From NCBI GenBank assembly GCA_026988575.1, contig JALSKZ010000002.1:1-64000 (forward strand): 64,000 nt of DNA, given 5' to 3'. Of the stretch, positions 44,262-50,269 are shown piece by piece. A program made the position numbers and the translations under genes. Source of the stretch: Thermodesulfobacteriales bacterium. GTDB taxonomy: Bacteria; Desulfobacterota; Thermodesulfobacteria; Thermodesulfobacteriales; Thermodesulfatatoraceae. The notes under the pieces are model-generated. The model was not told the DNA's origin. It saw nothing but the letters and a program-made list of their open reading frames with translations, and did no database searches. Position 1 is the first letter of the stretch. Each line of letters starts with the position of its first letter.

Positions 44262-45474
44262 TCTGGTAGGTGGTCTTTCAGGCGACATGTTTCTTGCCGC
44301 ATTGCTAGACATTGGTCTGTCTAAGGAAGATTTATACGGTTTTTGGCGACAACTGCCCTTTGCAATAGATTTACACCTTGAAAGGGTCCAAAGAGGTGGT
44401 TTTTCAGGATGCCAGTTAGTTATTAGGGCCCTTAATAAGGGACCTTTTCCTCGTACATATTCCGATATTTGTGCTCTTCTACAAAAGATAGACTTGGATC
44501 CTCTATTATTTAAAAAGGCTCAAAGTGCCTTTCGTTTACTCTTTGAAGCCGAGGCCTGGGTACACGGTAAGTCCCTAGAAAACGTTCACCTTCACGAACT
44601 GGCCTCTTATGATACTTTAGCTGATATCTTAGGGGTTCTCTACGGGATAACAAAGCTTTCTATAGAGGAATTTTGGATGGGTCCAATACCTTTGGGGCGT
44701 GGTTTGGGCATGAGCGATCACGGAGCCCTACCTTTACCTGCCCCTGCTGTGCTAGAGCTCCTTAAGGGGTTTGTGGTTTATGGTATAGAGGACGAGGTAG
44801 AAACCATTACCCCTACGGGAGCAGTCCTTTTGCGGATATTAAACGTTAAACAAGGCCCTATACCGCGGATGTGTCTGAAAAACATAGGGGTGGGAGTTGG
44901 TCAGCAGGTGATAGAGTCTAGACCAAATATTTTGCGAATTTTTTATGGAGAAAAAGAGTTTACTATTAAAGACCTTTTTCTGGAATATGTTTGCGAATTA
45001 GAGGCAGACATCGATGATCAGAGTCCGGAGTTGCTGGCCGAAGCAGCTGTCCGTTTACGGGAAAAGGGGGCTATAGATGTGGTGGTTATGCCCTTGCTTA
45101 TGAAAAAGGGGCGACTTGGTTCAAAGATTAAGGTCCTTGTAACGCCTGATCAAACTCTATCTTTGTCCCAAGAATTATTAAGAGAAACGGGCTCTTTAGG
45201 TGTGCGTCTAAAGGAAGTAAAGCGATTTACGCTGCCGAGAAAGATAAAGAAGGTAAAGACCCCCTGGGGTAATTTAAGGGTAAAATTTGTTCAGAGTAAA
45301 GATTTTTTATATTTTAAGCCCGAGTTTGAAGACGTAAAGGCCTTGGCTCAAAAGAGGGGTCTTTCTTTACCTTCTTTTTATCGAGAAATAATAGGCTTTC
45401 TTGAGCATAATAAAAAGACTATTTTTTCTGACATTGACGACAAACACCCCGAAATTCCAAATAAAGTTGATTAA
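44242..45474 (+). CDS. larC: Nickel-pincer cofactor biosynthesis protein LarC
   Basis: Inserts nickel to make the Ni-pincer nucleotide cofactor of lactate racemase and related enzymes. About 410 residues. N-terminal [29 protein letters not shown] and AEAAVRLREKGAIDVVVMPLL mark the DUF111/LarC family. In L. plantarum LarC needs a ribosomal frameshift to join LarC1 and LarC2; here it is one uninterrupted frame. GGGGGGT precedes two ATGs (44239, 44242). larB and larE are not in the window. It overlaps the DedA gene upstream and the perR-like gene downstream (convergent, 56 bp). Confidence 0.9.
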   Translation: MPVAYLDLVGGLSGDMFLAALLDIGLSKEDLYGFWRQLPFAIDLHLERVQRGGFSGCQLVIRALNKGPFPRTYSDICALLQKIDLDPLLFKKAQSAFRLLFEAEAWVHGKSLENVHLHELASYDTLADILGVLYGITKLSIEEFWMGPIPLGRGLGMSDHGALPLPAPAVLELLKGFVVYGIEDEVETITPTGAVLLRILNVKQGPIPRMCLKNIGVGVGQQVIESRPNILRIFYGEKEFTIKDLFLEYVCELEADIDDQSPELLAEAAVRLREKGAIDVVVMPLLMKKGRLGSKIKVLVTPDQTLSLSQELLRETGSLGVRLKEVKRFTLPRKIKKVKTPWGNLRVKFVQSKDFLYFKPEFEDVKALAQKRGLSLPSFYREIIGFLEHNKKTIFSDIDDKHPEIPNKVD

Positions 45475-45880
45475 TCTTTCCCCATTTTTTGACTTGATCA
45501 GGTATTTTTATATTTTTAATTTCAGGCCAATAGAAGTCTAATATTTTTTGGCATTTAGTACATATTAAGTGAAAATGTGGTTTGGTATTAGGATCAAACC
45601 GGGCCTTATCGTCAAATAGATAGAATCTCTTTACCAGTCCTAATTCTTCAAAGGTGGTTAAAGTGCGGTATATAGTATCTAAAGATATAGTGGGTACTTT
45701 TTCTTTTACACGGGCATATATTTCTTCGGCTGTGGGATGGTCAGTAGAAGAAAGCAAGACGCGGAAGATCTCTAGTCTTTGATAAGTGAGTTTTATACCA
45801 TGCTTTTGACATAATAGACGAAATTGTTCCAGAGTATTTTCTTCAGGAGAATTAGTATTGGTAGGAGACGCAAGTATCAT
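45419..45880 (-). CDS. perR: PerR-type Fur-family repressor
   Basis: 153 residues. Winged helix (SLDTIYRTLTTFEELG). Metal-sensing part RFDPNTKPHFHLIC followed by CTKCQKILDFYWPEI and CRQCQKK. The Asp in ILDF corresponds to PerR Asp104 (Fur has Glu), and both structural zinc CxxC pairs are present, so peroxide-sensing PerR is more likely than Fur. The ATG at 45880 has AAAGGGGT five bases upstream; the GTG at 45886 is an alternative. It overlaps larC antisense. Confidence 0.82.
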   Translation of the reverse strand: MILASPTNTNSPEENTLEQFRLLCQKHGIKLTYQRLEIFRVLLSSTDHPTAEEIYARVKEKVPTISLDTIYRTLTTFEELGLVKRFYLFDDKARFDPNTKPHFHLICTKCQKILDFYWPEIKNIKIPDQVKKWGKINQLYLEFRGVCRQCQKK

Positions 45881-45894
45881 AAGCACCCCTTTAT

Positions 45895-45950: not shown

Positions 45951-45985
45951 GGGAAGGAGGGGGGACTGTCCCCCCTCCTTAGGTC
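45951..45985 (-). terminator. Terminator of htrA
   Basis: Perfect 12-bp stem AAGGAGGGGGGA (45954-45965) and TCCCCCCTCCTT (45969-45980) with a 3-nt loop, directly after the htrA stop. On the minus strand it is followed by a mixed T-rich stretch (ATTTATCTTTTCC). Confidence 0.8.
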
Positions 45986-47506
45986 TTATTTGATTTCTAT
46001 GGCTACGTAATGGCGGAAGCCGTTGGGATCACGGACTAAAAAGAGTACGGAACCGGTTTTTCTACTTTCCATAAGGGCCACCATGAATTCACGCATGTTA
46101 TGTACGCGGTGGCGGTTGACTTCTTCAATGAGCATTCCGGGACGCAAACCAACCATAGCGGCTGGGCTATTGGGGGCTACACCGGTAATTACTACACCAT
46201 CATTTAGGCCGTAACCCAATTTATCGGCCAACTGAGGGGTAAGCGGTTCTACGGTCAGACCCAGTCGATGCAAAATTTCATTTTGCGAGCTCAAAGCCAG
46301 AAGGTTTTGGGGCTGGGTCCCAATTTCTACCTCTATTTGTTTACGGTGGCCGTTTCTCCATATGGTCATGGTAACCTTAGTACCTGGCTGTGTCATAGCC
46401 ACTAAAGTACGTAGTTCGGACACATTCTTTATGGGCTTACCGTTGTAAGTCAAAATAATATCTCCCCTCTTTAAGCCTGCCTTTGCCGCAGGAGAATGTT
46501 CGGCTACCTCAGTGACTAGGGCACCTTCGGCTCGGGTGAGGCCAAAAGATTTGGCCAGGTCCTCGTTTAGGTCCTGAACAACAACGCCTAACCACCCTCT
46601 TATGACCTTTCCTTTGGTGATGAGCTGTTTCATTATCACCTTGATCATGTTTATGGGTATGGCAAAACCGATACCCATATAACCACCAGAGCGCGTAAAT
46701 ATGGCGGTATTCATACCAATGGCTTCCCCACGCATGTTTACTAAAGGACCACCAGAATTGCCTGGGTTGATAGCGGCATCGGTCTGAATAAAGTCTTCGT
46801 AATCGGTAATTCCTACCCCTGAACGACCTTTGGCACTTATCACACCTACAGTAACCGTTTGCGTAAGGCCAAAGGGGTTCCCAATAGCCATGACGAATTC
46901 GCCTACCTTGATCTTGTCTGAGTCTCCCAAGGGAAGAACGGGGAGATTACGGGCGTTTATTTTGATTACTGCTACGTCTGAAGCCGGATCAGTGCCGATT
47001 ATTTTGGCTTTAAATTCGCGTCCATCGGCGAGTTTGACGATGATTTTGTCTGCGTGGGCGACCACGTGGTTGTTTGTCAAAATATAACCGTTTGGGGATA
47101 CAATAAAACCAGAACCTGCGGCCATTTGTTTAAACTTATGAGGAAACTGGTTCTGGAAAAAACGTTGAAAGAATTCCGGACCAAAGAAATCAAAAGGGCT
47201 GGCAAAGGGAAAGGGAAATTCAGAGGGTCCTTTCCGGATTACGGTCTTTTCCACTTTTACAAATACAACGGCTGGTTCAGCCTTTTTAGCTACCAAGGCA
47301 AAGGCTTGAGATAGTTTAAGGGCTTCTTGAATAGCCTTATTCTCGTCGCTGGTTAAGGAATTATGCGGATGTCCCTGAGAAGAAGGTTCCTCGATCTTTT
47401 TGACCTTAAATAACTCCTGTAAAAAAGATTCCTTACCGTAAGAGCTGGAAACAGAAGTGCCGAAAACCCAAACAAATAGCACTAAAATACTTACAAACCT
47501 TTTCAT
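45986..47506 (-). CDS. htrA: Periplasmic serine protease HtrA/DegP
   Basis: Periplasmic protease/chaperone, about 506 residues. The ATG at 47506 (MKRFVSILVL) has AAGGAGGC upstream. A signal peptide is followed by the trypsin-like domain with the catalytic triad: His in NNHVVAH, Asp in PASDVAVI, Ser in NPGNSGGPL. Two PDZ domains follow (from about residues 300 and 410), as in DegP/DegQ. It degrades misfolded envelope proteins. It is 16 bp downstream of the HPF-sigma fusion gene, so probably co-transcribed, and is closed by a strong terminator. Confidence 0.95.
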   Translation of the reverse strand: MKRFVSILVLFVWVFGTSVSSSYGKESFLQELFKVKKIEEPSSQGHPHNSLTSDENKAIQEALKLSQAFALVAKKAEPAVVFVKVEKTVIRKGPSEFPFPFASPFDFFGPEFFQRFFQNQFPHKFKQMAAGSGFIVSPNGYILTNNHVVAHADKIIVKLADGREFKAKIIGTDPASDVAVIKINARNLPVLPLGDSDKIKVGEFVMAIGNPFGLTQTVTVGVISAKGRSGVGITDYEDFIQTDAAINPGNSGGPLVNMRGEAIGMNTAIFTRSGGYMGIGFAIPINMIKVIMKQLITKGKVIRGWLGVVVQDLNEDLAKSFGLTRAEGALVTEVAEHSPAAKAGLKRGDIILTYNGKPIKNVSELRTLVAMTQPGTKVTMTIWRNGHRKQIEVEIGTQPQNLLALSSQNEILHRLGLTVEPLTPQLADKLGYGLNDGVVITGVAPNSPAAMVGLRPGMLIEEVNRHRVHNMREFMVALMESRKTGSVLFLVRDPNGFRHYVAIEIK

Positions 47507-47522: not shown

Positions 47523-48578
47523 TTAATCAAGTTTTTTTTCGGTTTCTTCTTCTATGTCTTTGGGCTTGGGGCCCAACAATTTCCACTTTTCGGTGATGTA
47601 TCGTCGTACTTCTTGAATATCTTTTTCAACCTCTTCTTCTGTACGCCCTTGGAGCTTGGCAATTTCTATAGGGGAATAGCCATCCAACACGTGCCAGACA
47701 AAGGCCTGGCGCTTTTCTTCTGGTAGGCGAGACATTTCCCGCATGATCAAGTTGCTTAGTTCCTCTGCGGAAAGGAATTCTTCGGGTTCCACAACTTCTT
47801 CGGCGGGTAATACATCTTCCCAGGAGAGGATTTCTGTTTCAAAGAAGGGGTTTTCTATATCTTCCTTGAGTTTGTAGCGTATGTCGTCAAGGGGCAGGGT
47901 ATCTTCTACCGGTATGGCTTTGTGACCCTGTTCCCGTACTTTTTTGATTTCTCTGTGGATTATATCCATAATTTTATGGTGTAAAGCAAAGGAAAGATCT
48001 CCTGTCCCAACGATTTCATCATAATGGTCGTAAGCCCAAAGTACTGCTTCATCCACCACATCACCAGGGTCTAAATATCCAGGTGGTAGATCTCCGGTGA
48101 GTTGGAAAAATAGTATTTCGCGGCGGGCAAGACGATAAAGGTGTCGTAAGAGGGGCCGCAGCCGGTCCATAAAACGTTCTTTGAGATTGGCTGATTTATC
48201 CACCGCTAGATCAGGTAGAGCACGGGTAATTTCTTTGACATAGCGCTGCTTACGCTTGTATACATGTTCGCCTCTTAGTTCAGAAAGGTGTTTTCGCAGT
48301 TCCTTCTCCAGTCTTTCGCGGGCTATTTTAAAGGCCGCTTTCATTTGTTTATGTTCACCTCGGGCAGCTAGGGTGACTCCAGGTAAGGACAAATTTAGTT
48401 GGACATAAAAGGACTTTTTTTTCTCAAAACCCTCTACCACTACGCGCAAAATTTTGGCGTCTTCGTCAAAGTTTTTGGTCAGCCGATCGAAGCGTTCTAC
48501 CAAACGTTGGATATAGGCCTCGGCTATTTTACGATCAGCCGGACTAATATCACGAAATATTACTTGGTGTCGTAACAT
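47523..48578 (-). CDS. HPF/RaiA-like domain fused to sigma-70 regions 2 and 4
   Basis: 351 residues with two unrelated parts. Residues about 1-100 look like the S30AE/HPF fold: SPADRKIAEAYIQRLVERF, then FYVQLNLSLPGVTLAAR and KAAFKIARERLEKELRK. Residues about 135-212 look like sigma region 2 (RPLLRHLYRLARREI, LDPGDVVDEAVLWAYDHYDE, LHHKIMDIIHREIKK). Residues about 283-335 look like sigma region 4 (LPEEKRQAFVWHVLDGYSPIEIA, EEEVEKDIQEVRRYI). HPF proteins dimerise and silence ribosomes; ECF sigma factors direct transcription. I know of no characterised protein of this architecture. SD AGGAGGT is 6 bp from the ATG. Neighbours: a nuclease upstream, htrA downstream. Confidence 0.75.
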   Translation of the reverse strand: MLRHQVIFRDISPADRKIAEAYIQRLVERFDRLTKNFDEDAKILRVVVEGFEKKKSFYVQLNLSLPGVTLAARGEHKQMKAAFKIARERLEKELRKHLSELRGEHVYKRKQRYVKEITRALPDLAVDKSANLKERFMDRLRPLLRHLYRLARREILFFQLTGDLPPGYLDPGDVVDEAVLWAYDHYDEIVGTGDLSFALHHKIMDIIHREIKKVREQGHKAIPVEDTLPLDDIRYKLKEDIENPFFETEILSWEDVLPAEEVVEPEEFLSAEELSNLIMREMSRLPEEKRQAFVWHVLDGYSPIEIAKLQGRTEEEVEKDIQEVRRYITEKWKLLGPKPKDIEEETEKKLD

Positions 48579-48598: not shown

Positions 48599-49375
48599 TT
48601 ACTTTCCGCAGGAGACCGTAAGAGCAGCAACTTTGCCTGTCAAGGTAAATTGCATTAACCCCTGATAGGCAATATCAGCCAAATACATGAGGTTTAGGAC
48701 GTCTTCCCGGTTATATTTAAGGAGTTTTTCAAGCGCCTTTGTCTTACCTTTACGCCATTTTTTCCACAATAAAACAGCTTGATAACCATCCATTTGGGCT
48801 ACCTCTTCGGGACGAGCCAGTCCTAAGGCCTTTTCTATGCGTTTTAGGCCGCCTTTTAGGCCCAGTCGTCTCAAGAGCGGGCACAGATCCAGATGAATCG
48901 GTGGAGGAGAAAGCCACGGATATTTGGCCTGTAAAAAGGGTAGATCAAACTGTGCCCCTCCGAAAGTTATTATCATGGAGGATGAATTTATAATGGGTAG
49001 GGCTTCTTCTAGGTTTTCATGGGCTACAAAGGCCCGGTAAATTCCTTTTTTGGCCAGACCAATCACGGTTATTGCACTCTGTTGTCGAGAAAGACCGTTG
49101 GTTTCTATATCGAGAAAGAGGGCGCGTTCTTTAAAACGTTTATATAGGCGCCAATGATGTCTCTTAGGGATCAGGTTTCCCATGGCAACGAGGTCTTCTT
49201 TTAAGGCAATAGATTGTTGAAGGACGGTCTTGGCCTGTTTGAGCCTCCACGGACTAAATCCGTGGAGGCTCCTAGCCGCTAATAGGTCCCACCAATCTTC
49301 TATTCCTTGTTGCCAGAGATATCTTTCTCCTTGTTCTCCACAGCCTGGGAGATGCAAGAAAGTCCGGTAAAGCAT
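48599..49375 (-). CDS. RNase H-like exonuclease domain protein (YprB-type)
   Basis: 258 residues. The DEDD exonuclease pattern is visible: ALFLDIETNG, then FGGAQFDLPFL, HLDLCPL and YNREDVLNL. This matches the YprB ribonuclease-H-like family; the substrate is unknown. Its start codon abuts the stop of ppiC (no gap), so it is translated with it. A perfect 13-bp inverted repeat lies inside the gene (49241-49271). Confidence 0.82.
   Translation of the reverse strand: MLYRTFLHLPGCGEQGERYLWQQGIEDWWDLLAARSLHGFSPWRLKQAKTVLQQSIALKEDLVAMGNLIPKRHHWRLYKRFKERALFLDIETNGLSRQQSAITVIGLAKKGIYRAFVAHENLEEALPIINSSSMIITFGGAQFDLPFLQAKYPWLSPPPIHLDLCPLLRRLGLKGGLKRIEKALGLARPEEVAQMDGYQAVLLWKKWRKGKTKALEKLLKYNREDVLNLMYLADIAYQGLMQFTLTGKVAALTVSCGK
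49241..49271 (-). repeat. Perfect 13-bp inverted repeat within a coding region
   Basis: GAGCCTCCACGGA (49241-49253), 5-nt spacer, and the exact complement TCCGTGGAGGCTC (49259-49271). It is inside the exonuclease gene, whose frame stays open through it. No T run follows on either strand, so it is not an ordinary terminator. Confidence 0.7.
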
Positions 49376-50269
49376 CTAATTTAAGCGGTCGGGATAAATT
49401 TTAATGGGATGTTTCACTTCCAGCTGTTTTATGACCATCCGTAAGGCCATCTCTTGGTGTTGTTGTAAGAGGTTCTGTTTAATCTGTTCTTTGACCTCTG
49501 AAAAGCTTTTCTGTTTAGCAGGCCTTATCTCTTCTACTTTTATGATATGGTAACCAAAGGCGGTGCGTACGGGTTTGCTTATCTCTCCGGGCTTTAAAGA
49601 AAAGGCCGCTTTTTCGAAAGATTCAATCATTTGTCCTTTGGTAAAAAAGCCCAGATCTCCACCCTTGTCCTTTGTCCCTGGATCGGCCGAATATTCCCTG
49701 GCCAATTTAGCGAAATCTTCACCTTTTAGAAGTCTCTGCCGGATCATTTCGGCCTTTTTTAGGGCCTCGTTTTCCTGTTTTTTGGTGGCCTTTTCCGGTA
49801 GGGGGATGAGAATATGACGGGCGTGAATGGACTCAGGGGTCATAAATTCAAGTTTGTGTTGTTCATAGTAGGCTTTTACCTCTTTTTCCGTAACGGGCTT
49901 TACTTTGGGAAGTACTTTTTGAGATAGAAATTGTTGCGCGAGAAGGCGATCAACTACATCTTGAATTTGGGCTTTGACGGCTGGGTCTTTATCTATGCCC
50001 TCCTCCCTAGCGGCTAAGGCCAAGAGGGTTACCTCCGCCCATCGACGTAATAGTCCTTTTTTGAGGGCTGGTTGTTGGGCCAGAATCATTTGGATCTGCG
50101 GGGGGGCATTTTTTACCATTTCCTCAAATTCGGCCTTGGTCAGTTTATAAGGTCCTACTTGGGCCAAGATGACGTTGGCCTCGTTGGCTTTTGTCCCTTT
50201 TTGGGTGGCCATAGCCGGGTTACAAAATAAAAGGATACTCAAGAAGGACACCACTAACAGTTTGTACAT
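49376..50269 (-). CDS. Periplasmic PpiC-type peptidyl-prolyl isomerase / foldase
   Basis: 297 residues. N-terminal signal peptide (LLVVSFLSILLFCNPAMA). A SurA_N-like chaperone segment is followed by the parvulin domain about 140-240 (IHARHILIPLP, AREYSADPGTKDKGGDLGFF, AFGYHIIKVEE). Helps fold envelope proteins, like SurA/PrsA. SD AGGAGG 7 bp upstream of ATG. First of a three- or four-gene run with the nuclease, HPF-sigma protein and htrA. Confidence 0.92.
   Translation of the reverse strand: MYKLLVVSFLSILLFCNPAMATQKGTKANEANVILAQVGPYKLTKAEFEEMVKNAPPQIQMILAQQPALKKGLLRRWAEVTLLALAAREEGIDKDPAVKAQIQDVVDRLLAQQFLSQKVLPKVKPVTEKEVKAYYEQHKLEFMTPESIHARHILIPLPEKATKKQENEALKKAEMIRQRLLKGEDFAKLAREYSADPGTKDKGGDLGFFTKGQMIESFEKAAFSLKPGEISKPVRTAFGYHIIKVEEIRPAKQKSFSEVKEQIKQNLLQQHQEMALRMVIKQLEVKHPIKIYPDRLN

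Follow-up and report, generated by a model that had tools for sequence, protein, structure and literature searches.

A protein joining a ribosome-hibernation-type domain to a sigma-like module in a Thermodesulfobacteriales bacterium and in mobile heat-resistance islands

Analysis of a 64,000-nucleotide stretch of DNA from a Thermodesulfobacteriales bacterium (GCA_026988575.1, contig JALSKZ010000002.1, positions 1 to 64,000; hereafter the window) indicated that this heat-loving bacterium encodes a single 351-aa protein in which an S30AE/HPF-type N-terminal domain is fused to a degenerate RNA polymerase sigma factor comprising regions 2 and 4. The same uncharacterized protein is found in mobile heat-resistance islands of Escherichia coli and Klebsiella and may help to shut down or link protein and RNA synthesis under stress. 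The original prediction, made from the sequence alone, had described an HPF/RaiA-like part followed by ECF-like sigma regions 2 and 4 in a gene located directly before htrA and two genes after ppiC, and this observation was confirmed. Its interpretation, that the protein could silence ribosomes and redirect RNA polymerase in an RpoE-degP-surA-like envelope-stress circuit, was only partly supported: the architecture, the link to stress proteins and the absence of a characterized member all hold up, while a working ECF sigma factor running such a circuit is not supported. The coordinates of all features are given in the table.

Features of the fusion gene and its surroundings in the window
Coordinates	Strand	Feature	Evidence
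47523..48578	-	HPF-sigma-like fusion CDS, 351 aa	Pfam, NCBIfam, orthologues
48273..48578	-	N-terminal S30AE/HPF-type domain (residues 1-102), strongly basic (net +11 over residues 1-118)	Pfam PF02482; AlphaFold2 fold; Foldseek; charge
48159..48272	-	Basic hinge and extended helix (residues 103-140; ...LRGEHVYKRKQRY...)	Alignments; low pLDDT
47934..48158	-	Sigma region 2-like domain (residues 141-215)	NCBIfam TIGR02937; RpoE/SigW alignments
48048..48065	-	Sigma 2.2 motif GDVVDE (residues 172-177); acidic position kept, near-universal Gln replaced by invariant Asp176	Comparison with ECF controls
47775..47933	-	Acidic linker between the sigma-like domains (residues 216-268), with a family-conserved motif near 246-258 (FYQPDxxLxLEDV in island members)	Between-clade identity 0.43 at 246-258, the highest of the segments measured
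47580..47774	-	Sigma region 4-like domain (residues 269-333)	Pfam PF08281; 2h27 TMt 0.80 over 63 columns
47595..47639	-	Degenerate, acidic recognition helix EEEVEKDIQEVRRYI (residues 314-328)	Net charge -3
45986..47506	-	htrA/degP, Do-family periplasmic protease; starts 16 bp after the fusion stop	NCBIfam degP_htrA_DO 5.6e-158
48599..49375	-	RNase H-like exonuclease (RNase_H_2), upstream gene in the operon	Pfam 2e-31
49376..50269	-	ppiC/PrsA-type peptidyl-prolyl isomerase, in the operon	Pfam Rotamase 1.7e-33
45954..45980	.	Strong terminator-like hairpin (12 pairs on +, 9 on -) just past htrA; probable operon end	Hairpin search
45419..45886	-	Fur-family regulator-like gene just beyond the htrA terminator	Named from its sequence

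The open reading frame lies on the minus strand, starts with an ATG at 48578 and is preceded by a GGAGG sequence 7 nt upstream. Pfam searches identified S30AE at residues 20-100 (E 1.2e-6, 29.6 bits against a cut-off of 23.7) and Sigma70_r4_2 at residues 277-326 (E 6e-8, 32.6 against 25.7), while NCBIfam identified the sigma70-ECF superfamily (TIGR02937) at residues 144-330 (E 2.7e-12, 46.6 bits, cut-off 42.9). On the contrary, the curated HPF/YfiA model TIGR00741 scored below its cut-off (24.6 bits, cut-off 40.9) and Pfam Sigma70_r2 did not match, region 2 being detected only by profile: a profile of the family found RpoE, SigW, HPF and RaiA structures and aligned region 2.2 of RpoE with residues 168-207. 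AlphaFold2 on seven sequences predicted an HPF fold at pLDDT about 86 and helical sigma-like domains at about 65-86, although the linkers and the relative placement of the domains are unreliable (pTM 0.46). Foldseek searches against the PDB retrieved HPF structures (3tqm, 4hei, 8uu7) for the N-terminal part and ECF sigma structures (6jcx, 5wuq) for the C-terminal part. Modelling of the C-terminal part alone improved the pTM to 0.67, but Foldseek E-values stayed above 0.001.

In transcription order, the genes are glgC-like, KaiC-like ATPase, hexapeptide protein, ppiC, RNase H-like exonuclease, fusion and htrA, separated by gaps of 0 to 43 bp, and the fusion and htrA are probably cotranscribed. 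No separate htrA promoter is evident, a promoter scan gave no excess over shuffled sequences and an Rfam search of the operon returned nothing. Full-length orthologues with 59-73% identity are present in all 10 sampled genomes of the same family and in one genome of a sister family (G010; numbers with G denote genomes and numbers with L denote loci of the comparison set), which ruled out chance and an assembly or frameshift artefact, while no full-length copy was found in 30 genomes of a third family of the order. Named close relatives include Thermodesulfatator autotrophicus. The order ppiC, RNase H, fusion, htrA is kept in Thermodesulfatator-type genomes and in G010. In some of the Thermodesulfatator-type genomes a DacZ-like diadenylate cyclase gene, absent from the window and from this gene order in G010, sits between the RNase H-like gene and the fusion (L053:5032-5985, L054:5033-5983, L068:7192-8151 and L061:10001-10999; shown by Pfam for L068, DAC 6e-22 and DacZ_P 5e-10). 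A contig labelled Heimdallarchaeota (L051, JAMOVR010000056.1) carries an 82%-identical fusion with the same operon and is almost certainly a mis-binned Thermodesulfobacterial contig. The homologue of the Fur-like gene also follows htrA in L051 and L054.

We next asked whether the protein belongs to a wider family. A profile search of 395 genomes of the phylum yielded full-length distant members in G041, G080, G115, G095 and G397, of which the G115 copy (L064:10901-11929) is read through an internal TGA and is either a pseudogene or a sequencing error. The copy of G397, a desulfobacterial assembly, sits in a tLST-like island (L058:411-13119, contig C51) and is 100% identical to a Pseudomonas fragi plasmid protein, indicating recent transfer or contamination. 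A tblastn search with that protein found 303 plasmid records, 263 of them with at least 80% coverage, mostly from Klebsiella, Enterobacter, Acinetobacter and Escherichia, and a copy with 80% coverage or more is present in 144 of 5,426 complete E. coli genomes. In these islands the gene is the hypothetical protein between hdeD-GI and trx-GI, called orf11 in the literature (gene order in PMC8290217; ORF10 in PMC7685784). The window protein itself matched plasmids of Shinella, Agrobacterium, Methylorubrum, Roseomonas and Burkholderia, where the genes lie in islands with Hsp20, FtsH, a ClpK-like AAA ATPase and HdeD, or with Hsp20, GroESL and DnaK, and are annotated as sigma-70, FliA or sigma-28.

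Alignment of the desulfobacterial and tLST profiles with hhalign joined the two ends of the family directly over 328 columns (20% identity, E 8e-21), and a profile of the non-tLST members found orf11 at 2.6e-30 over residues 1-328. A phylogenetic tree of 22 members separated the Thermodesulfobacterial, tLST and alphaproteobacterial groups with full support, while the order of the deep forks is uncertain. The tLST orf11 is under purifying selection (E. coli versus P. fragi, dN/dS 0.23). A phage origin was not supported, since no match was found in 50,697 phage records. A scan of genome contigs found only close and desulfobacterial copies, the Planctomycetota hit covering region 4 alone. Short HPF-only proteins (about 118-136 aa; L065:9182-9592, L066:9058-9414, L067:4224-4583) resemble the N-terminal domain of the fusion without a sigma part, and HPF-only proteins in G074, G123 and G051 were examined as possible split versions, but no sigma-like gene was seen beside them.

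To establish whether the sigma-like part could read promoters, 18 clade-representative members were compared with 12 ECF controls (11 desulfobacterial sequences and RpoE) at RpoE positions. The region 2 Asn80 is Asn in 12/12 controls and 0/18 members, the region 4 Arg176 is Arg in 11/12 controls and 0/18 members (one Lys, in G095), the region 2.2 Gln51 is Gln in 12/12 controls and Asp in 18/18 members, and Asp48 stays acidic everywhere. Of the core-binding D-x-x-Q-E motif of region 2.2, the Asp/Glu are kept while the Gln is replaced. These positions contact the -10 element, the -35 element and the polymerase clamp. The recognition helix has an average charge of +2.0 in the controls and -2.7 in 22 members, although the p-value of this comparison ignores relatedness. 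Between clades, the core-facing sigma 2.2 segment is about as conserved as among true ECFs (0.39 versus 0.44), while identity drops to 0.20 in the -10 region (ECF 0.36) and to 0.27 in the recognition helix (ECF 0.42). The most conserved family-specific features are Arg153, Gly162, Asp176, Leu251/Asp255 in the acidic linker, and Arg290.

The N-terminal domain is basic in all 13 members examined (net charge +6 to +13), but none of these 13 carries the DMYxAID helix motif, which is present or near-identical in E. coli HPF/RaiA and in the ordinary HPFs, and the long-HPF C-terminal domain is lacking. The window genome also encodes an ordinary long HPF elsewhere. Searches with regions 2 and 4 found no other ECF sigma in the window genome: four sigma-70-type proteins contained region 2, and two of the region 4 hits were LuxR-type regulators. 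No NepR was found in eight fusion-bearing Desulfobacterota genomes, a Caulobacter control being positive, and no zf-HC2 anti-sigma was found in six.

The explanation that fits best, held tentatively, is that the protein is a stress-linked adaptor built from a diverged HPF-type domain and a sigma factor that has lost promoter reading. The computations themselves establish the two-part architecture, supported independently by sequence and by predicted fold, its full-length conservation, membership in a family carried by protein-quality-control operons and mobile heat-resistance islands, tLST orf11 included, the loss of the -10 and -35 reading residues in every clade, and a strongly basic N-terminal domain in every member examined. 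It is by inference only that the basic domain would dock on rRNA or the 30S subunit, and that the sigma-like part, which keeps the sigma fold and the acidic region 2.2 surface facing the polymerase clamp, would dock on core RNA polymerase or on a partner that recognizes sigma. In this view, under heat or proteotoxic stress the protein would hold, park or tether the transcription and translation machines without opening promoters, while the chaperones and proteases encoded beside it do their work. Protein-quality-control neighbours occur in four separate settings (ppiC/htrA; tLST; Hsp20-FtsH-ClpK-like AAA-HdeD; Hsp20-GroESL-DnaK), and there are precedents in HibA, which joins an HPF/RaiA domain to CBS modules (PMC13324472), and in E. 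coli, which coordinates Rsd (transcription) with RMF/HPF (translation) hibernation (PMC6904343).

Some evidence weighs against this explanation. Since the sigma-hallmark Gln is Asp in all members, core binding may be altered or lost, and since the DMYxAID signature is missing, a canonical 30S site is not assured. Furthermore, orf11 is not among the seven tLST1 genes whose single deletion in E. coli MG1655 lacZ::LHR reduced heat or chlorine resistance (PMC8407380), and LHR2 carries a disrupted orf11 (PMC5383660), although those assays measured acute killing and not recovery or ribosome preservation. Proteomics detected eleven LHR proteins including one hypothetical protein, without stating in the text whether this is orf11 (PMC7010813). 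In the furthest-reaching form of the explanation, which is possible but less likely than not, one polypeptide would physically link the small ribosomal subunit to core RNA polymerase through an HPF-type domain and a promoter-blind sigma module, would park transcription and translation together during heat stress, and would have been spread among bacteria as orf11 of heat-resistance islands.

A less likely alternative is a ribosome-only or RNA-only stress factor, in which the HPF-type domain does the work and the sigma-derived part is a reused helical scaffold (dimerization, regulation) with no contact to RNA polymerase. The loss of the promoter-reading residues and of the region 2.2 Gln, the consistently basic N-terminal domain, and a tLST sigma part that falls below Pfam cut-offs agree with this view. 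On the contrary, the sigma-like parts are at least as conserved as the N-terminal domain among the Thermodesulfobacterial copies (0.76-0.78 against 0.70), and the acidic 2.2 patch and the linker motif persist between clades. Somewhat more doubtful is a sigma mimic in the manner of PhyR, in which the sigma-like part would sequester an anti-sigma factor and so free a real sigma factor, with the HPF-type domain as input or anchor. PhyR sigma-like models match members (G095 protein, 28.6 bits, cut-off 27), a PhyR structure is the best PDB hit of the G095 protein (9by5, 3.5e-7), and the isolated C-terminal part models closed, as in anti-sigma complexes (5uxx, TMt 0.68). Nevertheless, neither NepR nor zf-HC2 was found in the genomes searched, no other ECF sigma was detected in the window genome to be released, and Pfam revealed no receiver domain. 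An active ECF-type sigma with an N-terminal HPF regulator, transcribing its own operon or an envelope-stress regulon that includes htrA, is the least likely, since despite the NCBIfam score, the resemblance of htrA and ppiC to sigma-E targets and the existence of ECFs with fused regulatory extensions (PMC8103513, PMC3426412), the -10 Asn and -35 Arg are lost and the recognition helix is acidic in all clades, no separate htrA promoter is evident and no anti-sigma gene lies nearby.

These results give a testable identity to one of the unexplained genes of the tLST, an island that makes Enterobacteriaceae resistant to heat and chlorine, and show that the automatic sigma factor labels on the alpha- and betaproteobacterial copies are probably misleading. 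If the mechanism holds, the protein would be a single-protein link between ribosome hibernation and RNA polymerase. Reviews of ECF sigma factors with fused extensions do not mention S30AE or ribosome-hibernation domains (PMC8103513, PMC8999054), and the main text of the HibA paper, which looked for domains fused to HPF/RaiA, does not mention sigma fusions (PMC13324472), although only open-access articles without their supplements were covered, so that an earlier note elsewhere is possible.

Among known systems, tLST orf11 is a full-length homologue with the same two-part layout that lies among heat-shock, protease and DegP genes, but it is plasmid- or island-borne, has a more degenerate sigma part and is annotated only as a hypothetical protein, while the window copy is a chromosomal gene of a probable operon. 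The plasmid-island sigma-70/FliA/sigma-28 proteins of Shinella, Roseomonas, Paracoccus and Burkholderia are the same fusion beside Hsp20, ClpK-like AAA ATPase, FtsH, HdeD or GroESL/DnaK, with about 20-25% identity to the window protein, and are annotated as sigma factors without mention of the HPF half. HPF/RaiA shares the predicted N-terminal fold and a remote sequence match, but the fusion lacks the DMYxAID motif and the long-HPF C-terminal domain and carries a sigma module. The ECF sigma factors RpoE and SigW share regions 2 and 4 by profile and predicted fold, without region 3, whereas the fusion has lost the promoter-reading residues, has Asp for Gln in region 2.2, has no anti-sigma partner found and possesses an extra N-terminal domain. 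The PhyR sigma-like domain is likewise a sigma fold detached from promoter reading, with weak to moderate region 4 similarity, but the fusion has no receiver domain and no NepR in the genomes tested. HibA also joins an HPF/RaiA domain to another regulatory module, but it is archaeal, its HPF domain is C-terminal and its partner modules are CBS rather than sigma.
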